A stretch of 64,000 nt of DNA from contig WVWY01000026.1 in NCBI GenBank assembly GCA_011773785.1, forward strand, positions 40,668-104,667. The letters are read 5' to 3'. The DNA comes from Candidatus Nitrosomaritimum khambatensis. Lineage in GTDB: Archaea; Thermoproteota; Nitrososphaeria; Nitrososphaerales; Nitrosopumilaceae. The translations under genes and the position numbers were made by a program. The notes under the pieces were generated by a model. That model had not been told where the DNA came from and searched no databases. It saw nothing but the letters and a program-made list of their open reading frames with translations. Shown here one piece after another: positions 16,607 through 46,388 of the stretch. Position 1 is the first letter of the stretch, and each line of letters opens with the position of its first letter.

Positions 16607-16807
16607 TTAGGTTTCTAATTTTTGTCTTTTGCCTCGAGCTTTAGTTCTTAAAACTGCCTTACAACATACGCATCGAATACTTTCTGTTGTTAAAAAGAGC
16701 CCACAAAAAGTACAACGCTTCTGTCCAAGTTCGTATCTTACCCTGTTTGGAACAGGTTCTGCTTTGTGCATTTGGCATATTCCTCTACATGTTCTTCCCA
16801 CTACCAT
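16607..16807 (-). CDS. Zinc-ribbon small protein, third gene of the TFB operon
   Basis: CTFCGLF...CVCCKA; overlaps TFB stop. Confidence 0.65.
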   Translation of the reverse strand: MVVGRTCRGICQMHKAEPVPNRVRYELGQKRCTFCGLFLTTESIRCVCCKAVLRTKARGKRQKLET

Positions 16808-17703
16808 TCACCTCCTATTTTTTTTCTAATTTCTTTTGACCTATCTCTGATGGTCACAGAACTAATTCCCGAAATCTCGGAAATTTTTAATTGAGAAATT
16901 TTTTCGTTATTCCTAACAGAAGCCAAGTTAACAACTGCAGCTGCCATGGACATAGGATTTTTACTGGTACTAATTCCAGCATCCAAAACCCTACTCATTA
17001 AACGGATGGCATCCATTCGAGTTTTCTTGCCAACTCCAACGTCATTTAGAACTCTTTCTACAAAATCTGCTGGACTGTAGGTTTCTGGAGTAATATCTAG
17101 TTCATTTACCAAAAATCGATAGTTCTTTTGGAGATTTTTACGCTTGATATTGCCTGCATCTGCTATGTCCTGTAAAGTTCTGGGAGTTCCAGTTATCCTG
17201 CAAGCAAGATATACAGTGGCACATAAAATTCCAGCAGTAGAACGTCCGCTTAGTATTTTTTTTCCAGCAGCCTTTCTAAATATGTGTGCAGATTTTTCGA
17301 CAACAGATTCTGGTAGTCCTAATTTGGCACGTATTCCGTCTAGTAAGGAAAATGCCTTGTTAAAAGACTTGTATTCTTGTTTTGATTTACTGTTTCTATC
17401 CCATAATCTTAATCGATAAAAAATTTTTGAATTTTCAGTAGAGAGACTTTTTCCAGTAGAATCCTTGTTAGATTGTTGGATAACAGTAGATAGTCCCATA
17501 TCAGACATTTTCAAGGTAAGTTTTGTTCCGACTCTGGTGTTTGATTCATACTCCTCTTTTGTGAACCCAGTTTGTTCAGGACCAATATCGATTGCTTTTT
17601 CCAAAATCACAGATCCGCAGGTTCCGCAGGCAATCTCTCCAGTATTGAAATCAGTTATTGGAGAAAGATTTTTGCAATATTGGGAATGAATCACAGACAT
17701 CAT
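16801..17703 (-). CDS. tfb: Transcription initiation factor IIB paralog 1 (TFB)
   Basis: Zinc ribbon CGTCG, two cyclin folds, SAHIFRKAAGKKILSGRSTAGILCATVYLACR. Confidence 0.9.
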   Translation of the reverse strand: MMSVIHSQYCKNLSPITDFNTGEIACGTCGSVILEKAIDIGPEQTGFTKEEYESNTRVGTKLTLKMSDMGLSTVIQQSNKDSTGKSLSTENSKIFYRLRLWDRNSKSKQEYKSFNKAFSLLDGIRAKLGLPESVVEKSAHIFRKAAGKKILSGRSTAGILCATVYLACRITGTPRTLQDIADAGNIKRKNLQKNYRFLVNELDITPETYSPADFVERVLNDVGVGKKTRMDAIRLMSRVLDAGISTSKNPMSMAAAVVNLASVRNNEKISQLKISEISGISSVTIRDRSKEIRKKIGGEW

Positions 17704-21565: not shown

Positions 21566-22945
21566 TTAAATTGGTTTTCCTTTGTATTGGTAATCAATCA
21601 CTTTGTGAAAGAGATTATGAGAAGCAATTATACCTATTACGGTAAGTGCTATTCCCACAAAATTTCTTATTATGATTACGGTACTAGGATCTCCAGCAAT
21701 CAGAGACATTTGGAATGCCACATAGAAATTATCAAACAGCCAAAAAGCCATTGTGACCCACGTTAAGATTCCTGCCATCAAATAACCTAATCTTGTTTTG
21801 TTATAGACAAATAGAATAGAGAATCCAATTGTAAGATACCAAATCCCAGAGGCTAAAAGCCATAGAGGTTCATAAACTTCGGGTCTATTGTCCAACCAAT
21901 AATAGGTGCTTCCGCATATACCATAAGCAAATAGACTTACCAACAAAATTTTTTGGTTGATTTTGAAACCAGTTTTTTCTTCTCTTTTGTTCATTTTTGG
22001 TGGATTGGTATTGATTTCTTTAGTGGCAATTTCTATTGCCTCTCTAACGGATTTTAGTTTAATTGGAATTATTTTTTTGATATCGTTATTTCTTACCACA
22101 GTATCATGAACAAGACTATCAATTAGAGGTCTTGCTAAGGAAGCTTTTACAGGTGTAATTAGGTCTACCCAATAAGAGGACAATCTGGTTGTCAGAAATG
22201 GAATTTGAATAACAAAAAGATTTTTGTTCAAATAGGCCGAATAGTCTCTCATTAATTCTTCATAGGTCATTTTGTCTGGGCCTCCAATATCATAGATCTT
22301 GCCAGAAGTTTCTGGATGCTCAAAACAACCAACTAAATATTCCACAACATCATCCACAGCTATGGGTTGTGCTAATGATTTTACCCATGAAGGACATACC
22401 ATTACTCTTAATCTTTCTACAAGGTATCTCAACATTGCATAAGAACCTCCTTGAGCTCCGATAATTATCGAAGCTCGTAATTCAGTCACAGGAATAGAGC
22501 CTGATGATAAAATCTCACCTACTTGTTTTCGGCTTTGCATGTGTGGAGATAATTCATCACCCTCGTTAATCAAACCTCCAAGATAGATTATTCTTTTAAC
22601 TCCAGCTTTTGTAGCTGCGGAAAGAAAGTTTTTGGCTTGAACTTTTTCTCGAGATGCAAAATCTTCCCATTCTTCCTTGCTTCCCTCCATCGAATGCAGT
22701 AAATAGTAAGCTACATCTGTTCCCTCTAATGCAGTAGTAAGATTATCTACATCAAAAACATCTGCTTTTACAAATTTAACATAAGGCTGGTCTGGTATCT
22801 CTCTTCGGGACATTCCTTTTACTTTAATGCCCATACTCGCAAATTTCTCAACAAGTCTTGATCCAATAAATCCCGTTGCGCCAGTTACAATAATAGAGTA
22901 GGGCCGATTTTCGGCGACCACATCACTATCTGCCTTTTGAGACAT
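21566..22945 (-). CDS. SDR/NAD(P)-dependent epimerase-like protein with C-terminal TM domain
   Basis: IIVTGATGFIGSRLVEKF; C-terminal 4 TM. Confidence 0.85.
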   Translation of the reverse strand: MSQKADSDVVAENRPYSIIVTGATGFIGSRLVEKFASMGIKVKGMSRREIPDQPYVKFVKADVFDVDNLTTALEGTDVAYYLLHSMEGSKEEWEDFASREKVQAKNFLSAATKAGVKRIIYLGGLINEGDELSPHMQSRKQVGEILSSGSIPVTELRASIIIGAQGGSYAMLRYLVERLRVMVCPSWVKSLAQPIAVDDVVEYLVGCFEHPETSGKIYDIGGPDKMTYEELMRDYSAYLNKNLFVIQIPFLTTRLSSYWVDLITPVKASLARPLIDSLVHDTVVRNNDIKKIIPIKLKSVREAIEIATKEINTNPPKMNKREEKTGFKINQKILLVSLFAYGICGSTYYWLDNRPEVYEPLWLLASGIWYLTIGFSILFVYNKTRLGYLMAGILTWVTMAFWLFDNFYVAFQMSLIAGDPSTVIIIRNFVGIALTVIGIIASHNLFHKVIDYQYKGKPI

Positions 22946-23353: not shown

Positions 23354-23390
23354 TTGGCACTAGATGGATAATTTGGCATTAAATATATAC
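23354..23390 (+). promoter_or_regulatory. Regulon promoter of CarH-like gene
   Basis: TTGGCACTAG-N11-GGCATTAAATATATA. Confidence 0.7.
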
Positions 23391-23414: not shown

Positions 23415-24257
23415 ATGGTATACATCAGGGCTAAAAAAATTAAAGGCGACCAATATCTCTACCTTGTTAAAAGTGTCTGGGACAAGCAAAAAAACACCTC
23501 AAGGCAAGAGATTGTCAAGTATCTTGGGAAGGCAGCTGATGTTCTGAAAGACGATATACCTCCTGATTACAGAAATGATCCAAAGATCATTTCATTTTTG
23601 GCATCCCACAATCCTGAGAATATGGCCAAAAAAGAGGAGGCCAGGAAAAAGACAAAAGAGCAGCTTTACAAAAAATTTACTCAAGGAGATATCAAGTCAT
23701 CTTTGAAAACTTATGAAGATTATGTAAAATTATTCAATTCTGCAGATTTTTTTGATAAAATTTTACGTCCAGTCATGTACTTGATTGGAGAGAATTGGGC
23801 CAATAACAAAATCAGTATAGCCACTGAACATGTAGCCTCTAATGTTGCCCAGGGACTTGTTAAAATTATAATGGATAGAAATCAGGGAGAATCAAATAAG
23901 AAAAAGATACTTGTTTGCGTTCCACAAGGAGAAGAACATAGGTTAGGATGCGATGTTCTAGAAACTTATCTCAGTTCAAAAGGATTCAAAGTTTACAATT
24001 TAGCAAATTCGGCTCCAAATGAATCTATTATCAGTTTTATTGAAACTGCAAAGCCAGACGTTGTTTTTGTCTCAATAACATTAGAGGACAACATAAAGCC
24101 TGGTCAAAGGCTGGTACGGAAAATCACAGAGGCATACCAAATTCCAATTTTTGTGGGAGGTTTTGCCTTACAATCTGAAAAAACCCCAAAATTTGAGGCT
24201 ACTGTTCTAAAAGACACATCCTTAGAACATTTACCCAGATTAATCAGAGCAGCATAG
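23415..24257 (+). CDS. CarH/LitR-like B12-binding regulator with non-MerR N-terminal domain
   Basis: GENWANNKISIATEHVAS (W-x9-EH), GEEHRLGCDVLETYLSSKGF (ExHxxG, B12-binding Rossmann); start revised to MVYIRAKK. Confidence 0.8.
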   Translation: MVYIRAKKIKGDQYLYLVKSVWDKQKNTSRQEIVKYLGKAADVLKDDIPPDYRNDPKIISFLASHNPENMAKKEEARKKTKEQLYKKFTQGDIKSSLKTYEDYVKLFNSADFFDKILRPVMYLIGENWANNKISIATEHVASNVAQGLVKIIMDRNQGESNKKKILVCVPQGEEHRLGCDVLETYLSSKGFKVYNLANSAPNESIISFIETAKPDVVFVSITLEDNIKPGQRLVRKITEAYQIPIFVGGFALQSEKTPKFEATVLKDTSLEHLPRLIRAA

Positions 24258-24258
24258 T

Positions 24259-25611
24259 CTAGTTAATAATTGGTTTTTGTTGTCTCAGGTATTCGAGTAT
24301 TTTTGGAAGACACAGAATTGAACTATGCGCAGCCGAATCGGTTCCGATTCCATAACTTACAGTAGAGTCCCCAACGAAGAAAAGACCATCTATTCCGTTT
24401 ACCTTGTGTGGCATTTTTGATTTCCATACTTTTCCTGGTTTCTTGACAACTGATTCCACCAGACTCCATCCCATTGGCCTTTCCCAAAGTAAGGAACTTT
24501 TGAAATCCGGATAGATTGCGTTTATTTCTTCTTTCATTTTTTCTACAGTTTCACGTATTTTTTGGGGGCTTTTCACATATTGTGGAGGTACAGGTGTTCC
24601 TGTAATTATCAAATGCTCCCCTTTAGGTGAAACTTTTGGAGTCATATTAGAAATGAAAAAAATTCCCTTTGCAGTATATTTTTCTCCAACAGGAAAAACA
24701 ACATGACGAGTATCTAATTTTTTAGATAAAGCAAAATGTACTTCAATAACGGCAGTGGTATCATTTAGATTATCAATTTTTTTTAAAAATTTTTGATCAA
24801 AAACTTCCTTATCAAATAACTGCTTAAGAGCTTGGTATGCAGGATATGAAATAACAATACAATTAGTCTCTATGAAATTACCTTTATTATCAATAAATCC
24901 AGTAACCTGGTTGTTTTCAATTAGGATTTTTTTTATGCTGCTATTAAGCAAAATTGAATTTCCTTTTGATTGAATGTAATTTGAAAGGATTTGAGAAATT
25001 TTATCATAACCTCCATCAGAAGGATATGCAAATTCGCTAGTACCGCCTTTGAATGGATTAGCCCTAATTATTGTTCTTGCAAATTCACCCAAGGAAATGT
25101 TTTTGGCGCTATCAGCAAATGCCAACATGCAAACTGCTTCAAAAAAGGCATTAGTTTTCTCATCTAAATTTTTGGTAATATCAACAAGAGAGGTGTCATC
25201 CCAAGATTCCGTTTTTTCAATCGATGAAAATGCAAGAGGTAAAAGAATTCTTAACAAAGCAAGCCTGCTTTTTAATGGAACCATAGACAATTTCAGAAGA
25301 TCTAGTATGCCCTTTGGATAGATATGAAAAGAATCGTCAGAATAAAATGCAATATCATCAACTCTACCTAGTTTTAATTGAGATTCGATTCCAATTTTCT
25401 TGAGAATTTGATAAATCGCTGATTGAGTGTAAAATGGCATAATATGAAACCCGTTATCTAAAATGTGATTTTTGTAGGTGATTGATGCAGTCCTTCCACC
25501 AACTTTACCATATTTTTCATATGTTGTGGTCCTAATACCCTCTTTTGCCAAGAGAGCAGCCATAGTTAAACCTCCTACACCTGCACCAATTATTGTGACA
25601 TTTTGTGTCAT
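24259..25611 (-). CDS. CrtI-like FAD-dependent phytoene desaturase/amine oxidase
   Basis: TIIGAGVGGLTMAALLAKEGIRTTTYEK; C-term GLFFVGDSTVSYGIGTDSA. Confidence 0.85.
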   Translation of the reverse strand: MTQNVTIIGAGVGGLTMAALLAKEGIRTTTYEKYGKVGGRTASITYKNHILDNGFHIMPFYTQSAIYQILKKIGIESQLKLGRVDDIAFYSDDSFHIYPKGILDLLKLSMVPLKSRLALLRILLPLAFSSIEKTESWDDTSLVDITKNLDEKTNAFFEAVCMLAFADSAKNISLGEFARTIIRANPFKGGTSEFAYPSDGGYDKISQILSNYIQSKGNSILLNSSIKKILIENNQVTGFIDNKGNFIETNCIVISYPAYQALKQLFDKEVFDQKFLKKIDNLNDTTAVIEVHFALSKKLDTRHVVFPVGEKYTAKGIFFISNMTPKVSPKGEHLIITGTPVPPQYVKSPQKIRETVEKMKEEINAIYPDFKSSLLWERPMGWSLVESVVKKPGKVWKSKMPHKVNGIDGLFFVGDSTVSYGIGTDSAAHSSILCLPKILEYLRQQKPIIN

Positions 25612-25631: not shown

Positions 25632-25670
25632 GATATTTATCTTGCTGGCATCATAATAATCTAGTGCTAA
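25632..25670 (-). promoter_or_regulatory. Regulon promoter of CrtI-like gene
   Basis: TTAGCACTAG, ~27 bp to GATAAATATC; leaderless. Confidence 0.75.
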
Positions 25671-27170: not shown

Positions 27171-27716
27171 CTATTGAATGCGGAATTTCTGTCCTAAAGT
27201 TTTTCCCATTAATTGCAAAGCATATCTACACACATTTGGGGTTAGGGTGAAAAATCCTCTGAAATTTCCATCCTCATATTCCTCAGCAATTAAGCCAAAT
27301 GGCCCATAAGGTCCTCGAGTAATCACACTCCAAACATTTACCAGGTTTGTGTTCTTGCAGTTAATTACTTCAATTTTATCAGGAGTTTTGATTTGTGTTT
27401 TGCCATAATTTGCAATGACCCAAACTTTAGGTATATTTTCAATCATTTTTTGATATCTTTTTTCTACAAATTTGTAACGAGCTATTTCCTCGAAGGTAGC
27501 AAGAAGTGGCTCACCATTATCTTGTGCGTATTTTTCTATTAATTTGCTCAAATTGTAAAGAGGTTTCCTTTCAGAATGAAAATTATGATACCCTTTTTCA
27601 ATAAATTTATCTAACTTCCATAGTGGTAAGATAGAATTATCAAGATCATGCCATTCGGCAAGTTGAGGAAATTGTTCCCATACAGAGGCCACAAAACCAG
27701 AATATGGAGTTACCAT
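27171..27716 (-). CDS. DICT-like sensory domain protein, paralog of 41950..42537
   Basis: RKPLYNLSKLIEKYAQDNGEPLLATFEE...FVEKRYQKMIENIPKVWVIANYG. Confidence 0.6.
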   Translation of the reverse strand: MVTPYSGFVASVWEQFPQLAEWHDLDNSILPLWKLDKFIEKGYHNFHSERKPLYNLSKLIEKYAQDNGEPLLATFEEIARYKFVEKRYQKMIENIPKVWVIANYGKTQIKTPDKIEVINCKNTNLVNVWSVITRGPYGPFGLIAEEYEDGNFRGFFTLTPNVCRYALQLMGKTLGQKFRIQ

Positions 27717-27808: not shown

Positions 27809-28216
27809 ATGATGTCAAGATATGAAAAAGTTCTCAACATGGTAATGGATTTTAACAATTCCGTCAGACTAGCTGTAATAAGTAATACTGATGGAGAAAT
27901 TTTATGGAATGCAAAAAGGAAAGATGTTACTCTAAAAATACCACTAGCTGAAACAAAAAAAGCTTTGAAACGTGAAGCCTCAGATTGGGTCGAGAGATGC
28001 AAATTAGAAGACCGGAGCAATATTGGAAGAGCAATGTATAACATAACATCATTTGAAAAGATTAAGAGAGTCTCAGTTCCAATTGATGCCTTTCATCTAT
28101 TATTCATCAGCGTAGATAACGAACCAATCAAAAAAAGCAAAACCAAGAACTATGGTAGAATAGTAGAGATGGGTAAAATTATGTCTATTGTAGACTTCGT
28201 AAATAATTTTGAATGA
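27809..28216 (+). CDS. Conserved hypothetical (roadblock/PAS-like small domain)
   Basis: 135-aa ORF divergent from the DICT-like gene. Confidence 0.5.
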   Translation: MMSRYEKVLNMVMDFNNSVRLAVISNTDGEILWNAKRKDVTLKIPLAETKKALKREASDWVERCKLEDRSNIGRAMYNITSFEKIKRVSVPIDAFHLLFISVDNEPIKKSKTKNYGRIVEMGKIMSIVDFVNNFE

Positions 28217-29446: not shown

Positions 29447-30340
29447 ATGGTTCAAAGTAAAAAACAAAAAATCTGTGACCATTCGCTTTTGATTACAGAT
29501 TTCATCACTGGAGAAATTTCATGTAGTAAATGTGGTATAGTTCAATCTGAAAAAGTCATATCCTTTGGACCAGAGAATTTTGGGCTACAAAATGATGATT
29601 ACCAGGGAGCTGTTAGAACGGGTCAAAAAATTTCATTAAAAATGGCAGATATGGGGTTATCTACATTGATTGAATCCAAAGATAGAGACTCTTCGGGAAA
29701 ATCCCTCTCAATTGATAACAAAAGGGCTTTTCATCGTCTTAGAATGTGGGATAGGAATAGCCGGTTTTCCCTCCAAAACCAATCATATACAAACGCATTT
29801 ACTCTTCTTGATGCAATCAGATCAAAATTGGCACTACCCGATCATGTTGTTGAAAAAACAGCATATCTTTTTCGTAAAGCCTATCAAAAGAAGCTACTAC
29901 CCGGGAGATCAAATCATGTCATATTATGTGCATCTCTTTATCTGGCATGTAGAATTACCGAGACTCCAAGAACTTTATCTGATATTGCCCAAGCAGGCGG
30001 AGTAAAAAAGAAGACAATACAAAGAGGATATAGATTTCTTTCAAGGGAACTTGACACATATGCAAAATCGTATAATCCTTGTGAATTTGTTTCTAGGATT
30101 TCAAATGAAGTAAAAATATCTGAGCGTTCCAAAATTTACGCTAGAGAAATTCTGGAGATAGGAGTAGAAAAAGGAATAACGGAGGGAAAGCATCCAATGG
30201 CCATGGCAGCGGCAGCTGTTTACTTGGCCGTTCAAAAAAATAATGAAAACATAACACAAGCAAAAATATCTCTTGCTGCAGGTATAAGTGCCGTAACGAT
30301 AAGAAATAGAGTTAAGGAATTAATGGTGTTAGAAAATTAA
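29447..30340 (+). CDS. tfb: Transcription initiation factor IIB paralog 2 (TFB)
   Basis: Zinc ribbon + two cyclin folds, colinear with 16801..17703 product. Confidence 0.9.
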   Translation: MVQSKKQKICDHSLLITDFITGEISCSKCGIVQSEKVISFGPENFGLQNDDYQGAVRTGQKISLKMADMGLSTLIESKDRDSSGKSLSIDNKRAFHRLRMWDRNSRFSLQNQSYTNAFTLLDAIRSKLALPDHVVEKTAYLFRKAYQKKLLPGRSNHVILCASLYLACRITETPRTLSDIAQAGGVKKKTIQRGYRFLSRELDTYAKSYNPCEFVSRISNEVKISERSKIYAREILEIGVEKGITEGKHPMAMAAAAVYLAVQKNNENITQAKISLAAGISAVTIRNRVKELMVLEN

Positions 30341-30345
30341 TGAAA

Positions 30346-30383
30346 TTGGCACTAGCACCCATAATTATCACTAGTTAAATATC
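30346..30383 (+). promoter_or_regulatory. Regulon promoter of 30404 gene
   Basis: TTGGCACTAG-N11-ATCACTAG-TTAAATATC. Confidence 0.8.
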
Positions 30384-30403: not shown

Positions 30404-30787
30404 ATGACAGCACTAGTTGAAAAAGTCGTGATACAGCAGCCCAAGTTAGAACCATATTTTTATCAATTCTTTCAGGATGTTGTGAATACCATGCCAAAGG
30501 TGGATCCTGATCTTCTAATTAGAGTAATGATGTTTCAGGTTAACCTAAAAAAATATCCAGGACCAGATATTCCTCACGTAAATCTCTATGTGAGATACCG
30601 AGAAGGCGTAGATCTTCACCAAAAGCAAGAAGAGGGTCGTGACACGTACCCATTTGAAGTAACCACAAGCAGGTGGGGAGATGGAGTGATCTTTTCAGGT
30701 TTGATGAGTATTGGGACTGTTGAATCTGTATGTTCAGACCCCGATATCGTAAAGGTGACAGGCGAGGCTAAGCCTACACATAACTAG
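30404..30787 (+). CDS. Conserved ~125-aa protein of unknown function, paralog of 41547..41909
   Basis: GPDIPHVNLYV.Y.EG.DLH.KQEEGRD.YP.EVT.SRWGDGVIFSGLM shared with paralog. Confidence 0.7.
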   Translation: MTALVEKVVIQQPKLEPYFYQFFQDVVNTMPKVDPDLLIRVMMFQVNLKKYPGPDIPHVNLYVRYREGVDLHQKQEEGRDTYPFEVTTSRWGDGVIFSGLMSIGTVESVCSDPDIVKVTGEAKPTHN

Positions 30788-31190: not shown

Positions 31191-32555
31191 TTATTTTATT
31201 TCTTTAAAAATTTCTTTTGATTTTTGCGCCTCTATTTTGTGATCTACTATTGGTTTAGGATAGTTAAGATTTGAAGGGAAATTTTTCCATAAATTATGAA
31301 TGACAATTGGAGTTAAGGATTCCAGTTTTGGAATCCATTTTTTTATATACAAACAATCTTTGTCAAATTTCTCTTGCTGTAACCAGGGATTAAAGATTCT
31401 GAAATAGGGGACAGAGTCACAACCTGTAGATGCAGCCCATTGCCAATTTCCGGAATTCACAGCAGGATCATAATCTACTAATTTTTGGGCAAAATACTTC
31501 TCACCTAATTTCCAGTAAATATGAAGATCCTTAGTCAGAAACGATGCCACAATCATTCTGACACGGTTATGCATGAAACCTGTGTGATTTAATTCCTCCA
31601 TGCCTGCATCGACTATTGGAAAGCCAGTTTTGGCATTACACCATGCCTCAAATTTGACCTTAGAACGAGACCATGAAATTTTTTGATATTTTTTCTTAAA
31701 TGACTTTTGTGTAGCAAAAGGAAAATGAAAAGAAATATGATTGAAAAATTCTCTCCAATAAATTTCGCCCATCAGAGTATGATGGGTTCCTAATTTTGAG
31801 AGGATGTAATCGTACGCTTCCCTAATTGAAACTGTTCCAAATCTCAAATGAGAAGATAATCTTGTAGTGAGGGTTATTGGGTAATCTCTTGTTTTGTCAT
31901 AATCTTTGAAGTTATCTAGATTTTTTAGAATTTTTAATCCATTTGAGCGCCCCCCAGGAAATTCAGATTCAACGTTGGGAACTGAAATGGAAAAATCGGA
32001 GATTTTTTCTCTATTAAAATTATTTTTTAATTTCCTTTGGGATTTTCTGACAGGAAATATCCTGGCTTTTTTATAAAATTGAGAATAAATGGTGTAAGGA
32101 TTATTGAGATTTGTTTTAATCTCATTAGGGTTATGTAGTAAAAAGTCCAGGGTACTTGATAGATGTATTTTCAATTCTAAGCACAGTTTATGAATTTCCA
32201 TATCTCGTTTTTTTGAGTAAAATGAAAAATCAGTATTCATGAAAATAGAATCTATATTATGTTCTTCGACGATTTTTTGGATTATTTTTTTGGGGTTTCC
32301 TTTAAAAATTTGTAAAGAGGTTTTTTGGCTTTTTAATTGTTCATTCAAATCTAAAAGAGATTCATTAAGAAAGTTCCATCGAAATTGTGAATCTTTAAAA
32401 TGCTTCAAAAAAAAATCATCATAAATAAAAATTGGAATCACTGTCTTTGAATTTTCAAGTGCTCGGAATAATCCAGTATTGTCCTCTAGGCGTAAGTCAC
32501 GCCTAAAAACAAAAAGAGATTTTTCAAATTTACTGTTTTTTGCATTTCCTGACAA
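31191..32555 (-). CDS. phr: DNA photolyase / cryptochrome family
   Basis: LFVFRRDLRLEDNTGLFRAL; GFMHNRVRMIVASFLTKDL...DYDPAVNSGNWQWAASTG. Confidence 0.95.
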   Translation of the reverse strand: MSGNAKNSKFEKSLFVFRRDLRLEDNTGLFRALENSKTVIPIFIYDDFFLKHFKDSQFRWNFLNESLLDLNEQLKSQKTSLQIFKGNPKKIIQKIVEEHNIDSIFMNTDFSFYSKKRDMEIHKLCLELKIHLSSTLDFLLHNPNEIKTNLNNPYTIYSQFYKKARIFPVRKSQRKLKNNFNREKISDFSISVPNVESEFPGGRSNGLKILKNLDNFKDYDKTRDYPITLTTRLSSHLRFGTVSIREAYDYILSKLGTHHTLMGEIYWREFFNHISFHFPFATQKSFKKKYQKISWSRSKVKFEAWCNAKTGFPIVDAGMEELNHTGFMHNRVRMIVASFLTKDLHIYWKLGEKYFAQKLVDYDPAVNSGNWQWAASTGCDSVPYFRIFNPWLQQEKFDKDCLYIKKWIPKLESLTPIVIHNLWKNFPSNLNYPKPIVDHKIEAQKSKEIFKEIK

Positions 32556-32582: not shown

Positions 32583-33356
32583 CTAGGCCCAGGAAATAAT
32601 TTTTTTTTCATTATTAGAAAAACCCAAAAACATTCCTAAAGTAATCCTTGGTGTTGGTCCTTGAATCATTGTTACTTCATGATATTGAATAGGGTTGATT
32701 AAAACTAAATCTCCAGGTTCAAGATTTGAAATCTTGCAAGATTTTTCTGAAGTAACAACTTTGGAAGAATACCCAAATTCTATTTTTCGATATTTTTCGT
32801 CAGTTTTTTTCCAATTTTTATTATAGATTACCAAATCACCTCCATGTTCTGATTCTTGTAGGTGTAAAACACATGATAGTTGATAATCAATATTTGAAAT
32901 AGAATATTCTTTTCCTTCATAACCAACATGATCCTTGTGTACAGGTATTGATTTTCCTAATTCATGAATACGAATAACAAAAGGAGAGTATTTTTTACCA
33001 TATTCATTTGCCAAATTTATTTTTGATTCAGGGAAAACCATTTTTAGCATATTGAAAATTCTTTTCGTGGGGTTTTCTTTTTGAGAAAATATTTTCGAAA
33101 ATTTCTTTTGAGTCTTTTTTGCTTGAATAAAATATTCCATCTTGTTTGTTGCATAAGACATCAAAAAGGGTCCAATGTGTTTTAGATTTTTCTTTTGGTA
33201 GTCTCCAGGGGCGGTCATTATTTTATTGACTATAGAATGGCAACTCTTTTTATCATAAAATCCCTTCAAAATTATTGCAGGAACGTCACTTGAAATGAGA
33301 GATTGGCAATTTACTCTATGTAAATCAGATTTTTGAACTATGAGTGGGGCCCACAC
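32583..33356 (-). CDS. 2OG-Fe(II) oxygenase (prolyl-4-hydroxylase-like)
   Basis: PVHKDHVG (HxD), LVLINPIQYHEVTMIQGPTPRITLG (distal H and R). Confidence 0.75.
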   Translation of the reverse strand: MWAPLIVQKSDLHRVNCQSLISSDVPAIILKGFYDKKSCHSIVNKIMTAPGDYQKKNLKHIGPFLMSYATNKMEYFIQAKKTQKKFSKIFSQKENPTKRIFNMLKMVFPESKINLANEYGKKYSPFVIRIHELGKSIPVHKDHVGYEGKEYSISNIDYQLSCVLHLQESEHGGDLVIYNKNWKKTDEKYRKIEFGYSSKVVTSEKSCKISNLEPGDLVLINPIQYHEVTMIQGPTPRITLGMFLGFSNNEKKIISWA

Positions 33357-41546: not shown

Positions 41547-41909
41547 ATGAGTTCAACAAATTCAATTATTGAGCCACTTTTTAGACAATTTTTAAATCAA
41601 GTGATGAATTCTCAGCCAAAAATCGACCCAGAGTTGATAGTGAGAATTATGCTGTTTGAATTGAATCTCAAAAGATATGTTGGACCTGATATTCCTCATG
41701 TCAACCTTTACGTCTATTACAAAGAAGGAACAGACCTTCATAAAAAACAAGAAGAAGGACGAGACAAATATCCAATTGAAGTAACACAATCAAGATGGGG
41801 AGATGGAGTCATCTTTTCGGGATTGATGGGAATAAAACATGTTGAAACTATCATTCAGGATCCTGATATTGTCCGAGCGACTGGATCAGCAAAACCAACA
41901 CACAACTAA
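41547..41909 (+). CDS. Paralog of 30404..30787, unknown function
   Basis: Extensive identity with the 30404 product. Confidence 0.7.
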   Translation: MSSTNSIIEPLFRQFLNQVMNSQPKIDPELIVRIMLFELNLKRYVGPDIPHVNLYVYYKEGTDLHKKQEEGRDKYPIEVTQSRWGDGVIFSGLMGIKHVETIIQDPDIVRATGSAKPTHN

Positions 41910-41949
41910 AATAATATTTTTCTTTTTGAAATTTTTTTGTTAATAGGGA

Positions 41950-42537
41950 TTAGTTTTGTCCTTTGTTAGATAAATCAATATTTACTCCCATAATTTGATT
42001 CATCTTTTCAATCACCTTATCGATTACTTCAGCCTTTGTTGTGAAAAATCCTCTAAACCAATCTCCTTTTTCAACACCACCCAGGTCTTCTGCAACCAAA
42101 CCAAAGGGACCATCTGGACCATTTGAGGCAACAATCCACATATCTTCAAGATTTGTACCTGCGCAAGTAAGAATTTCAGCTTTTTCTGGAGGAGTTGTTG
42201 GTGCAAAGAATGGGTTGTCAAATCCACCAATTACCCAAGTTTTTGGAATATTATTCATCAAATCAAGATAACGTTTCTCCACGTATTTGTAGAGGTGTTC
42301 AGTTTCAAATACAGCCACTAGAGGCTCATATGCCTTTGCTGCATATTTTTCTATCATAATGCTTAGTCTGTAAAGGTCACGGCGTTTTACCTTATCATAC
42401 CGGATAAATTCTGCTATCATGTGATCATTTAGGGTAGCAAATTTTTCTTTGTCGGTGATATCTACTAATTCTTCTTTTGCAAGATCAGGGAACTGGGCCC
42501 AAATTCCATCTAAAAATTTTTCATTAACGTTTTCCAT
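41950..42537 (-). CDS. DICT-like sensory domain protein, paralog of 27171..27716
   Basis: RRDLYRLSIMIEKYAAKAYEPLVAVFETEHLYKYVEKRYLDLMNNIPKTWVIGGF. Confidence 0.6.
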   Translation of the reverse strand: MENVNEKFLDGIWAQFPDLAKEELVDITDKEKFATLNDHMIAEFIRYDKVKRRDLYRLSIMIEKYAAKAYEPLVAVFETEHLYKYVEKRYLDLMNNIPKTWVIGGFDNPFFAPTTPPEKAEILTCAGTNLEDMWIVASNGPDGPFGLVAEDLGGVEKGDWFRGFFTTKAEVIDKVIEKMNQIMGVNIDLSNKGQN

Positions 42538-42543
42538 GGTTTA

Positions 42544-42879
42544 TCAAAAGTTGTCACTATATTTTACATTTGTGGGCTGTTTTTCAACTATTTTTCTTGT
42601 TAAGATAGTTGCAACATTTACTGCCACATGTTGTGACGCCATGCTGATTTTATCATTAAGGAAATCTTTTTCAATTTGATTTAGGGTTGGTTTGAAAATT
42701 CTCTCAAAAAACTCTAACTTATCAAAATTTTGAGAATACTCGTGATATGTTCTGAGGGCCGAATTTATTTCTCCCTTCGTGAAATCGTCATATAATTTAA
42801 TTTTCCATTCATCGTCCAATGCAGAACTAAATGGCGATTCAATTGATTCATTTGATTTTGTTTTTAGTTCGTATGGCAT
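42544..42879 (-). CDS. Stand-alone B12-binding-type helical-bundle domain protein
   Basis: EKDFLNDKISMASQHVAVNVA aligns with W-x9-EH bundle of 23415..24257. Confidence 0.65.
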   Translation of the reverse strand: MPYELKTKSNESIESPFSSALDDEWKIKLYDDFTKGEINSALRTYHEYSQNFDKLEFFERIFKPTLNQIEKDFLNDKISMASQHVAVNVATILTRKIVEKQPTNVKYSDNF

Positions 42880-42880
42880 T

Positions 42881-43744
42881 TTATTTCACCCAAATTCTAG
42901 GAATTTTTTCTGTTCTAGTTAATTTCGATATTTTTTCAAGAGAGAGGTCTTGTACCACATCAACCTCCCATGAGAGAGTTTTTGTCTTTGTTGCTTGACC
43001 CCCAACAAAGATTGGTTTTTTGTAATTTTCCCGGATATTTTCTACAAGTCGTTTAGCAGATGAGATGTTCTCCTCCAGAGATACGGATATGAAAACAAGG
43101 TCTGGGCTTTTTTCTCTAATTTCTTCTAATATAGATACAGTTGATGTATAGGCAGGTAGATTCCAAATCGTGTTTCCTTTGGATAAAAGAAAGGACTCTA
43201 TAACTTTAGAACCTAATGCATGCTGTTCACCATAGGGCAAACAAATGAGGATTTTTTTCTTTTTTGTGTCTTGATCATTTTTTTGATTGATTTTATCTAT
43301 GAGACTTTGTGCGGTGTTGTAAGAGATTATTTGTTGCCCTAGTTTGTTTTGTAATTTGTAATTAGATTGTTCAATTTGATCTATTGTGGGTCGAAAAACC
43401 TTTTCTAAAAATTCTTTAGAACCATACACTTTTTCAAATGAGTCATACAAAGAAAATGCCCCAATATCATCGCCTTCTCTGAAGGACAAAAGTAAATCAT
43501 TTTTGCATTTGTTTATAGCATCATCATGTTTGTTTGGATCAAAATATTTTAGATTTGAAAAGAAATCAGTAATTTTTTTGGAATTTCTGTAGTCTTTAGG
43601 AATGTCTTCTATTGTTACTGATGACTTTTTTCCAAGATACTTCACAATTTTTTGTTTCGAAGTTTTTCTTTCTGAATCCCAGTCACTTTTTACTAAATAG
43701 AGATATTGCTCACCTTTTACTGCTTTAATTCTTAGGTATGCCAT
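42881..43744 (-). CDS. CarH-like paralog: same N-domain + degenerate bundle + B12-binding Rossmann domain
   Basis: MAYLRIKAVKGEQYLYLVKSDW...; LPYGEQHALGSKVIESFLLSKG. Confidence 0.75.
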   Translation of the reverse strand: MAYLRIKAVKGEQYLYLVKSDWDSERKTSKQKIVKYLGKKSSVTIEDIPKDYRNSKKITDFFSNLKYFDPNKHDDAINKCKNDLLLSFREGDDIGAFSLYDSFEKVYGSKEFLEKVFRPTIDQIEQSNYKLQNKLGQQIISYNTAQSLIDKINQKNDQDTKKKKILICLPYGEQHALGSKVIESFLLSKGNTIWNLPAYTSTVSILEEIREKSPDLVFISVSLEENISSAKRLVENIRENYKKPIFVGGQATKTKTLSWEVDVVQDLSLEKISKLTRTEKIPRIWVK

Positions 43745-43939
43745 CAAAAGATATAGGCACTGAGTATTTAATGGACTTCCTCACCTAGGTGAGTTTTTTA
43801 ATTTCTTTCAGACATCATATTTTAATTCATAAAATAAGATTTGGGCATTCCATAGATTTCGTATCCTTCATTGAGAGTTAAGGGACTAGAATTTCAGTCG
43901 CTTTTATTACTGTCTAGAAAAATTGAATTAAGTTAGTAT

Positions 43940-44215
43940 ATGAAAGATAAGCGATCGAAATTGCAAATTTATTACGAAATTATGATGGCAATTAACCAAG
44001 ATAAACTTGAAAATGAAAAGATATCCAAAACCAGGATTCAGCAAAAATGTAATACTTCCTATGACAAGCTACTCAAATACTTGGAGGAAATGGAACAAAA
44101 AGGGCTAATTCAGATGAATCATGATATAGAAATCACTCAAAGAGGGCAGAAATTTTTCAATGACTATGCAAGAGTGAACAATTTGATAGAAGAAATTACC
44201 AGTAGACTAGTCTAA
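43940..44215 (+). CDS. Archaeal winged-helix regulator
   Basis: KTRIQQKCNTSYDKLLKYLEEMEQKGLIQM. Confidence 0.75.
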   Translation: MKDKRSKLQIYYEIMMAINQDKLENEKISKTRIQQKCNTSYDKLLKYLEEMEQKGLIQMNHDIEITQRGQKFFNDYARVNNLIEEITSRLV

Positions 44216-44772
44216 GGAAAATCGAATTTTTCCACTTTATCGTCCTTTGTAAGAACTAAAACAGAGTGGTGAGAATCCAATAGATTTTTCATGAAATTTC
44301 CAGCCAAATCTTTGCTTACAGATGGAACATGAAATGAGCAAATAAAGTTACCAGGAATTTTTTCAAAGTTATCATCAACCCATTGTTCTATTTTTTCCAT
44401 GGACTCAGTTTTCTTGTCTGAATTAAAATCAAAGTAATGTGTTGAGACGACCCTTATTGGTTCATTTTTGGGCAAAGATGCCACCTTTTCCTCTATCATT
44501 TTGGAATATTCGTCAAACGTTTTTGGAATTGGTATGATGTTTAGCAAGTTATTTTCAATTTTATTATCTACTGGAATCCCAAATTCTTCCAATCTTTCCT
44601 TTAATGATTCAGGTTCATTGGTAGTGTAAAAACATCTTTGATTTTTGTCTAATCCAGATTTAATAAAATTAAACTCTATCTTTTCGGCATTTTTTTGATC
44701 CTCATGAAAAAGCAGGATATGAGTATGATTAAGAGATTCTAGATATTCATGACTTATTTCAGAAAAACTCAT
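44212..44772 (-). CDS. MEDS-domain (DcmR-like sensory) protein
   Basis: HILLFHEDQKNAEKIEFNFIKSGLDKNQRCFYTTNEPESLKERLEEFGI. Confidence 0.7.
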   Translation of the reverse strand: MSFSEISHEYLESLNHTHILLFHEDQKNAEKIEFNFIKSGLDKNQRCFYTTNEPESLKERLEEFGIPVDNKIENNLLNIIPIPKTFDEYSKMIEEKVASLPKNEPIRVVSTHYFDFNSDKKTESMEKIEQWVDDNFEKIPGNFICSFHVPSVSKDLAGNFMKNLLDSHHSVLVLTKDDKVEKFDFP

Positions 44773-44821: not shown

Positions 44822-44860
44822 TTGGCACTAGTGGCAAAGGTTTCCCTTGTTTTTATTTTA
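44822..44860 (+). promoter_or_regulatory. Regulon promoter of WrbA-like gene
   Basis: TTGGCACTAGTGGCAA, 27 bp to TTTTATTTTA; ATG at +1. Confidence 0.6.
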
Positions 44861-44878: not shown

Positions 44879-45499
44879 ATGAAAAGTGAACCTGCAGTAT
44901 TAATTATATTTTACACTAGGCGCGGAAACACCGCAAAGATGGCCGAAGCAGTAGCTCAAGGAGCAAAACAAGAAGGAGCAACCATCAAGTTAATGAGAAT
45001 TGCAGATGATGTTCCAATAGATATTGTAAAAAAAGATCAAATCTGGTTTGAAAAACATCAAGAATTAGAAAAACAATATCCAACATCAGATGAGTTTACA
45101 ATCATTGAAGAGATGTCAAAGGCAGATGCAATAATTTTTGGTTCACCAACAAGATTTGGTAATATGGCACATGAAATGAAAAAGATGTGGGATCTTAGCA
45201 CGGATCTTTGGTTTACAGGAAAACTAATTGGTAAGGTAGGAGGAGTTTTTACTGGGGCATCAAGTGTTCATGGGGGTCAAGAAACAACTGCTCTTTCAAT
45301 GATGTTCCCAATGCTTCATCAAGGAATGATAATTGTTGGACCATCATATGATACCAAAGAACTTCATGAAAGCGGAAGTCCATATGGTCCAAGTACTATA
45401 GTTGGTGCAAATAGTGACCAAATAAAAGAGGTGGACCTAGTTGTGGCAAGAGCACTTGGTTCAAAAATTGCAAAAATAACTAGTAAATTATCTGATTAA
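44879..45499 (+). CDS. WrbA/flavodoxin-like NAD(P)H:quinone oxidoreductase
   Basis: IIFYTRRGNTAKMAEAVAQGA; GSPTRFGNMAHEMKKMWD; start revised to ATG 44879. Confidence 0.9.
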   Translation: MKSEPAVLIIFYTRRGNTAKMAEAVAQGAKQEGATIKLMRIADDVPIDIVKKDQIWFEKHQELEKQYPTSDEFTIIEEMSKADAIIFGSPTRFGNMAHEMKKMWDLSTDLWFTGKLIGKVGGVFTGASSVHGGQETTALSMMFPMLHQGMIIVGPSYDTKELHESGSPYGPSTIVGANSDQIKEVDLVVARALGSKIAKITSKLSD

Positions 45500-45500
45500 A

Positions 45501-46388
45501 ATGAAAATTGGCTATGCGTGTCAGAACCTTGAACTACGTGCAAATACCAACAATACGTTTCGGTTAGCCTCATATTCGGATCCTAAAATTATTCAAACGA
45601 TTGAAAAAAACTTTGAAGAGTTTAATAAAATTCTAGATTTTAATATCAAAAACAAATTACTTTTTTTTCGTCTTGGTTCAAGTTTCATACCATTTGCCTC
45701 ACATCCTATTTGTAAATTTGATTGGGAAGAATATTTTCAAGATTATTTTGTCAATCTAAGTAATACAATAAAAAAAAATAAAATTCGTATTTCTATGCAT
45801 CCAGGACAATTTGTTGTTTTAAATTCCAAAAAAGAAAACGTTGTTTCATCAAGCATTAGAGAGTTAGAATATCACTCAAGGTTACTTGATTTGTTAAAAT
45901 TAGACGAGTCTGCAAAAATCCAAATCCATGTGGGGTTTCCTCAAGGAGATAAAGAAAAGGCAAAAACAGATTTTATAAAAAATTTTGATAAATTATCAAA
46001 ATCTGTCAAAAAAAGATTAGTTATTGAAAATGATGAGCATTATTTTGGAGTAAATGATTGTCTTGAGATTCACAATTCAATAAAAATCCCGATATTATTT
46101 GATACATTTCATTACTCCATCCTCAATGAAGGCAAACCCATTCAAGATATTTTTGACATAATATCAAAAACATGGCAAAATAAAGATGGGTTACCTATGG
46201 TAGACTATAGCTCCCAGGACAAAAATGGAAGAAAAGGTAAACATTGTCCTACAATCGATTTAGGAGATTTTCAAAATATCATCACTAAATTATTTCACTA
46301 TAATTTTGATTTGATGTTAGAGATTAAAGATAAGGAAAACAGCGCTCTTCAGGCAAACAAACTGATAGCAAATACTATTACAATTTGA
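45501..46388 (+). CDS. uvsE: UV-damage endonuclease (UvsE/UvdE family)
   Basis: MKIGYACQNLEL, FRLGSSFIPFASH, ISMHPGQFVVLNS, LVIENDEHYF. Confidence 0.9.
   Translation: MKIGYACQNLELRANTNNTFRLASYSDPKIIQTIEKNFEEFNKILDFNIKNKLLFFRLGSSFIPFASHPICKFDWEEYFQDYFVNLSNTIKKNKIRISMHPGQFVVLNSKKENVVSSSIRELEYHSRLLDLLKLDESAKIQIHVGFPQGDKEKAKTDFIKNFDKLSKSVKKRLVIENDEHYFGVNDCLEIHNSIKIPILFDTFHYSILNEGKPIQDIFDIISKTWQNKDGLPMVDYSSQDKNGRKGKHCPTIDLGDFQNIITKLFHYNFDLMLEIKDKENSALQANKLIANTITI

Follow-up and report, generated by a model that had tools for sequence, protein, structure and literature searches.

The window, that is, the whole stretch of DNA analysed here, comprises 64 kb of a 1.37-Mb genome of the family Nitrosopumilaceae, which is assembled in 42 contigs and is 89% complete. 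Between 41.5 and 44.8 kb it carries a block that opens with the genes of a 120-aa protein (41547..41909, forward strand) and of a DICT-like protein of clade B, DICT-B (41950..42537, reverse strand), which together are referred to as module M1. Module M2 is composed of B12* (42881..43744, reverse strand), a paralog of the B12 photoreceptor-like protein encoded elsewhere in the window, with or without a protein consisting of the B12 four-helix bundle only (42544..42879, reverse strand), together with a winged-helix protein (HTH_45; 43940..44215, forward strand; PF14947, E 8.7e-13), which stands beside MEDS in M2 loci, and a MEDS-domain protein (44212..44772, reverse strand; PF14417, 39.7 bits, above the gathering cut-off of 29.8). 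B12*, the bundle protein and DICT-B follow one another in this operon order and in one direction, with gaps of 1 bp and 6 bp, the latter between 42544 and 41950, and the conserved neighbourhood runs beyond 43744, the winged helix and MEDS being companions of the B12 paralog.

The open reading frames named in a preliminary description of this DNA were all found at their coordinates. Its claim that the block holds paralogs of three families also present in a first cluster was borne out, the identities being far beyond chance. In fact, the 120-aa protein shares 68% identity over 113 aa (E 6e-64) with the first-cluster copy (30404..30787, forward strand), DICT-B 39% over 177 aa (E 3e-38) with its counterpart of clade A (DICT-A, 27171..27716, reverse strand), and B12* 41% over 279 aa (E 2e-74) with the B12 protein of open reading frame 23364, whose start is probably at 23415 (23415..24257, forward strand). 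The bundle protein is related to the bundle of the same B12 protein (41% over 73 aa, E 1e-19) and represents only this half of the B12 domain, for which Pfam B12-binding_2 gives a sub-threshold E of 0.15. In B12* the architecture is full and its own bundle degenerate, Pfam detecting B12-binding alone. Thus, the announced paralogy of the two B12-domain proteins of the block stood, with the refinement that a single one of them is a full B12 paralog and the other consists of the bundle alone.

As for the DICT-like label, PF10069 matches 9 of 29 members of the family (best E 2.7e-5) and any other Pfam family at most two; both window proteins stay below its cut-off of 23.8 bits, 27171 with 13.2 bits (E 0.089) and 41950 without a match. 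The same profile run over the window's whole genome returned no match, the E of 0.089 having been obtained when 27171 was scanned singly. A third DICT copy of this genome is found on another contig (C39:39096-39641), and the DICT tree contains two old clades, A (support 100/100) and B (100/99), besides a loose group C. Divergent from DICT-A and usually paired with it, the window encodes a DUF6659-like protein (27809..28216, forward strand; PF20364, sub-threshold E 1.3e-4), which is likely to be another partner of DICT; usually, two such copies are divergent from DICT-A, and 12 of 29 have the R1 half-site described below.

The 120-aa protein belongs to no Pfam or NCBIfam family. Its model (pLDDT 90.7) consists of two helices and a ferredoxin-like babbab fold, and this predicted fold is frequent among small domains that bind ligands or dimerise. 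A fold search with the model gave no significant relative (best E 6e-3, none below 1e-3), so that the Lrp/AsnC RAM and subtilisin-propeptide (protease-propeptide, I9) folds, which were below significance and shared the ferredoxin-like topology only, were discarded. Among solved structures, no relative was found for either the 120-aa or the DICT-like protein.

The B12 and DICT genes are surrounded by those of a DNA photolyase (31191..32555, reverse strand; PF03441, E 3.1e-76), a UV-damage endonuclease, UvdE (45501..46388, forward strand; PF03851, E 3.8e-58), placed downstream of an FMN reductase (44879-45499), an HhH-GPD glycosylase, an FAD oxidoreductase related to phytoene desaturase/HpnE (24259..25611, reverse strand; PF01593, E 1.7e-27), an NAD-dependent epimerase/SDR-type protein (21566..22945, reverse strand; PF01370, E 1.2e-13), two paralogs of the basal transcription factor TFB (29447..30340, forward strand, PF00382, E 7.8e-35; and 16801..17700, reverse strand, PF00382, E 3.6e-30) and a WelO5-type oxygenase. 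Many of these neighbours recur near B12 or DICT genes in other genomes, and photolyase, SDR and FAD oxidoreductase also belong to the light-induced region that LitR controls in Pseudomonas (PMC9758184). The WelO5-type gene (32583-33356; carrier-independent halogenase/2OG oxygenase, PF22814, E 1.6e-32) is followed by that of a conserved 94-aa protein (33356), and it recurs beside DICT elsewhere.

The protein encoded at 23415..24257, with Pfam B12-binding and B12-binding_2 (PF02310, PF02607) above cut-off, is a CarH-like candidate for a cobalamin-binding light sensor with a non-MerR N-terminal beta domain. CarH homologs are defined by the motif pair Wx9EH and ExHx2G-x41-SxT/V-x22-27-GG, the former being the adenosyl cap, which is not found in MetH and was lost in CarA (PMC8156234). 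Wx9EH was present in 25 of 25 proteins of the 23364 type, reading WANNKISIATEH in the window, and ExHx2G-x41-SxT-x25-27-GG in 24 of 25 (EEHRLG-x41-SxT-x25-GG in the window). In a PDB profile search with the B12 family, photocobilins, a MerR-type light sensor and CarH/LitR ranked above all methyltransferases. Moreover, the model of the protein (pLDDT 87.8) has the four-helix bundle and Rossmann fold of CarH type, and its 50 best Foldseek matches in the PDB were all CarH, photocobilins or MerR-type light-sensing domains (best E 5.7e-12). In its sequence, the protein bears the hallmarks of an adenosylcobalamin light sensor. The NCBIfam CarH model NF052513 gave 61.9 bits, far below its cut-off of 400. 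The Pfam scan of 23415-24257 found no MerR domain, and the N-terminus is modelled as three strands; as this domain has no relative among solved structures or in Pfam, DNA binding by it is a guess, made from the position of the domain. In addition, the His which follows the Trp and acts as light-state ligand in TtCarH is absent, W being followed by A, V, K, S or E, so that the light-state chemistry would differ from that of TtCarH.

In our judgement, a function of the B12 proteins in the sensing of cobalamin or of redox/UV stress, or as corrinoid methyl carriers, with MEDS pointing to the sensing of small C1 compounds, is quite unlikely. The weak matches to NCBIfam methyltransferase corrinoid models and the naming of MEDS after methylotroph regulators would fit such a function; against it stand the invariance of Wx9EH, a motif absent from MetH (PMC8156234), the precedence of light-sensing domains over methyltransferases in both sequence and fold, and the photolyase and UvdE genes nearby.

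B12* belongs to a clade of 8 members (support 100/100) on a long separate branch, and the motif Wx9EH was found in 0 of 8 of them, the lower-ligand motif being retained (EQHALG in the window). By its motifs, B12* (42881-43744) is CarA-like and not a CarH. In the bundle-only protein F-x9-QH replaces W-x9-EH, likewise in its counterpart beside B12* in G192, the only other genome where such a protein was found; it is possible that 42544 supplies the cobalamin cap in trans to B12*.

Of the 26 B12 orthologs examined, 22 have a promoter element, R1 (TTDGCACTA-N10-TTDGCAYTA), immediately before the TATA box and 56-61 bp upstream of the start. At the B12 promoter of the window (23354..23390, forward strand) it reads TTGGCACTA-N10-TTGGCATTA and is followed by the TATA box; another R1 element precedes the 120-aa gene 30404 (30346..30373, forward strand), and an R1 palindrome, TTGGCACTAGTGGCAA, is located between the MEDS and FMN-reductase genes (44822..44837), 57 bp before the ATG at 44879. 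The half-site TTDGCACTAG has 10 exact copies in the window versus 0.30 expected (0 of 100 shuffles), all of them at 17.9-44.9 kb, and begins 58-59 bp upstream of the annotated starts of 17700, 20877, 24259 and 30404, the site of the FAD oxidoreductase 24259 occupying 25661-25670, 50 bp upstream of the gene. Over 40 loci, the half-site was present at B12 in 12/12 cases, at the FAD oxidoreductase in 9/9, at DICT in 21/40, at TFB genes of related clusters in 8/16 and at the 120-aa gene in 6/17, compared with 9/439 for unrelated genes; it also marks some other cluster genes, and a photolyase lies directly downstream of R1 in 2/14 only. Several of the TFB half-sites are placed 57 bp upstream, and with them a basal transcription factor could itself be under the control of light. 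In the window's genome R1 has six sites, namely B12, the 26115 region, the 120-aa gene 30404, the 33851 region, the third DICT gene and G000:C1:5166-5197, the sixth showing 2 mismatches.

The occurrence of R1 across genomes follows that of the B12 gene. Among 150 genomes, the full element was found in 58 of 67 with B12 versus 5 of 83 without (p 9e-26, a significance inflated by kinship), and in a control with the reversed pattern in 5 genomes. R1 tracks B12 even where DICT and photolyase are absent, and no gene has it more constantly than that of B12. Its constancy there and its co-occurrence with B12 lead us to consider the B12 protein as the regulator, and its presence before B12, DICT and 120-aa genes establishes a direct link between the three families. 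The regulator might instead be the TFB paralog of the cluster or a winged-helix protein, B12 acting by protein contact or being a mere target. The second R1 repeat, directly before the TATA box, occupies the place of BRE and TFB, the cluster contains TFB genes, and one genome has R1 without a B12 match; nevertheless, the tracking of B12 where DICT and photolyase are missing and the constancy at the B12 gene speak against this reading, and direct repeats with a 19-bp period suit an oligomeric repressor, so that we hold it to be unlikely. The genome in question, G177 (99% complete), has R1 elements and a photolyase, and the missing B12 match may reflect a gap, a loss or another factor reading R1.

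A different element, R2, serves M2. The palindrome CTCACCTAGGTGAG is found exactly in the B12* promoter of the window (43780..43793), before the TATA box, while in genus g10 the element is placed at MEDS; copies with at most 2 mismatches were present in all ten other M2-type loci examined, and none in the examined stretches without M2. At the M1 promoters of several Nitrosopumilus genomes, single or degenerate R1 half-sites are seen at most; this and the rarity of R1 before photolyase count against the regulon proposed below. Given the difference between R1 and R2, M1 and M2 respond to distinct signals or factors, a further point against a single duplicated module.

The search for the families covered first 150 genomes of the order, next 220 of the family Nitrosopumilaceae, and gene neighbourhoods were mapped on 40 stretches. 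In the 220 genomes, B12 was found in 103, DICT in 53, the close 120-aa family in 20 and B12* in 9, each set being nested in the larger one: 120-aa in DICT (20/20 genomes, p 1.7e-14), DICT in B12 (52/53, p 2.6e-20) and B12* in 120-aa (9/9, all nine with DICT too). The Fisher p-values treat genomes as independent and, given their shared descent, overstate that independence. The sole genome with DICT and without B12, G218, is incomplete. The preliminary description had held that independent occurrence in most genomes would refute its claim, and this was borne out by half: the larger sets do occur alone (B12 without DICT in 51/103 genomes, DICT without 120-aa in 33/53), but the smaller ones do not, G218 excepted.

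The 120-aa and DICT genes are also neighbours. A DICT gene is found no more than 500 bp away from 20 of 23 120-aa copies and no more than 2.8 kb away from two others; the remaining copy stands at a contig end, as does the DICT-B gene of that genome. In a named collection searched with the 120-aa alignment, 22 loci were found, with DICT beside the 120-aa gene in 20; in L203 the two are 2.3 kb apart, and L215 is cut at a contig end. All the loci are from Nitrosopumilaceae except one record, F1_bin.41, which is labelled Nitrososphaeraceae and whose contig of 6198 bp matches one of G218, of the window's genus. In genus g10, divergent 120-aa homologs adjoin DICT in G172 and G223. Hence the claim that the families work together is supported by nested occurrence, by this adjacency and by the common promoter element, and not by co-duplication. 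A role of the 120-aa protein as a CarS-like antirepressor, an idea prompted by its being small, probably light-induced and present in all B12* genomes, was dropped as speculation, its fold being unlike CarS and B12* missing in 11 of the 20 genomes that have it.

Co-duplication of a three-component module, from which joint function had initially been deduced, found no support. In G192, of the window's genus, the two modules occupy separate contigs, the first holding the 120-aa gene with DICT-B and the second B12* with the bundle, winged-helix and MEDS genes, and both are contig-internal and flanked by other genes; M1 and M2 are 542 kb apart in G138, on one 1.36-Mb contig, and 198 kb apart in G306. 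The 120-aa gene lies less than 1 kb from B12* in only 1 of 9 genomes having both, the window genome. For MEDS, the distance from B12* does not exceed 470 bp in any of the 8 genomes in which the two could be placed. Also, the depths of the paralogs differ, the split of the 120-aa copies being shallow and more recent than that of DICT A and B; the B12 gene trees date the paralog split unreliably because of their long branches. Block duplication of a single module is rejected on the grounds of this synteny and of the trees: the block is formed by two older gene groups which have become neighbours in the window genome. That 120-aa, DICT and B12 make up one three-component sensor, duplicated as a unit, is accordingly very improbable: the three paralog sets do adjoin in the window and all nine B12* genomes also have 120-aa and DICT, but the separation of M1 and M2 in three genomes, their differing promoter elements and paralog depths, and the 51 genomes with B12 and without DICT tell against it. 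We consider it most improbable of all that the block is an assembly artefact of misjoined MAG contigs. The 42 contigs and 89% completeness of the assembly, and the fact that M1 and M2 are joined in no other genome examined, would allow for it, but a misjoin would hardly leave gaps of 1-6 bp between DICT-B, bundle and B12* genes that all point the same way, and the composition is even.

The block is probably part of a CarH-type, B12-based light-response regulon of the Nitrosopumilaceae in which R1 is operated by the B12 protein, the dependence on light and cobalamin being inferred. In the dark, the AdoCbl-bound B12 protein would sit on R1 beside TATA/BRE through its N-terminal beta domain and would block TBP/TFB, its own gene being among those affected. 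Once light breaks the Co-C bond, the protein would be released from R1 and the cell would produce photolyase, UvdE, oxidoreductases, a dedicated TFB, DICT and 120-aa, the last two presumably acting as a pair (a complex or a sensor and its partner) within the light response. B12*, with the lower-ligand motif kept and the adenosyl cap lost, would belong to a separate module with winged helix and MEDS under R2 and would probably integrate light or the cobalamin state indirectly; in the window genome, DICT-B would now be under R2 control through its place in the B12* operon. A bolder version, which we put forward only tentatively, is a two-tier B12 network unlike the bacterial ones. In one tier, the CarH-like sensor would use a DNA-binding domain of an archaeal beta type to act on a direct-repeat operator linked to the TATA box; the other would be a CarA-like MEDS/winged-helix branch on R2, in some species with a separate bundle possibly capping cobalamin in trans, and the 120-aa/DICT pair would link the two branches.

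Several features recall known bacterial systems. The B12 protein shares with Thermus CarH, Myxococcus CarH and LitR the bundle and Rossmann B12 domain, Wx9EH, ExHx2G-x41-SxT-x22-27-GG, a putative operator at its own promoter, and photolyase, SDR and FAD oxidoreductase as neighbours; it differs in being archaeal, in the three-strand beta N-terminal domain in place of MerR, in lacking His after Trp and in its TATA/TFB promoter. As in the CarH/CarA pair of Myxococcus xanthus, one paralog has Wx9EH and the other lacks it but keeps the lower-ligand motif; unlike that pair, B12* shares a module with MEDS and winged helix under a separate palindrome and not on the same promoters, and has a bundle-only companion in two genomes. 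The best PDB sequence matches were to photocobilins and light-responsive B12 domains of the SignatureFinder set, in which fusions of B12 domains with MEDS and HTH occur and DICT stands in the domain key (PMC11796333). Here the corresponding domains are encoded by separate adjacent genes, there is no biliverdin domain, and archaea are unmentioned in the main text of that work (PMC11796333). For the DICT domain (PF10069), a predicted light role in bacteria is quoted in a passage of PMC8612252; in contrast, the protein found here is small, stand-alone and sub-threshold, and it is paired with the 120-aa family.

Ammonia-oxidizing archaea, which are numerous in the ocean, are considered sensitive to light. 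A search of open-access papers, which is no proof of absence, yielded none on archaeal B12 photoreceptors, nor any photoreceptor or light regulon for ammonia-oxidizing archaea, photolyase being the sole light-related marker. With a candidate B12 light sensor, a defined putative operator, a nearby TFB and repair genes, the question of light sensing becomes directly testable. If the proposed regulon is real, archaea would be brought into B12-based photoreception, with a possible green-light switch built on an archaeal DNA-binding part, and the 120-aa family, which is without annotation, would receive its first functional context. This family, in a wider sense, has other uses as well, since distant homologs (about 30% identity) are found in genomes without DICT, namely at L192 8678-9043, L193 10185-10538 and L194 9568-9906, in all three with a 37971-like protein nearby.
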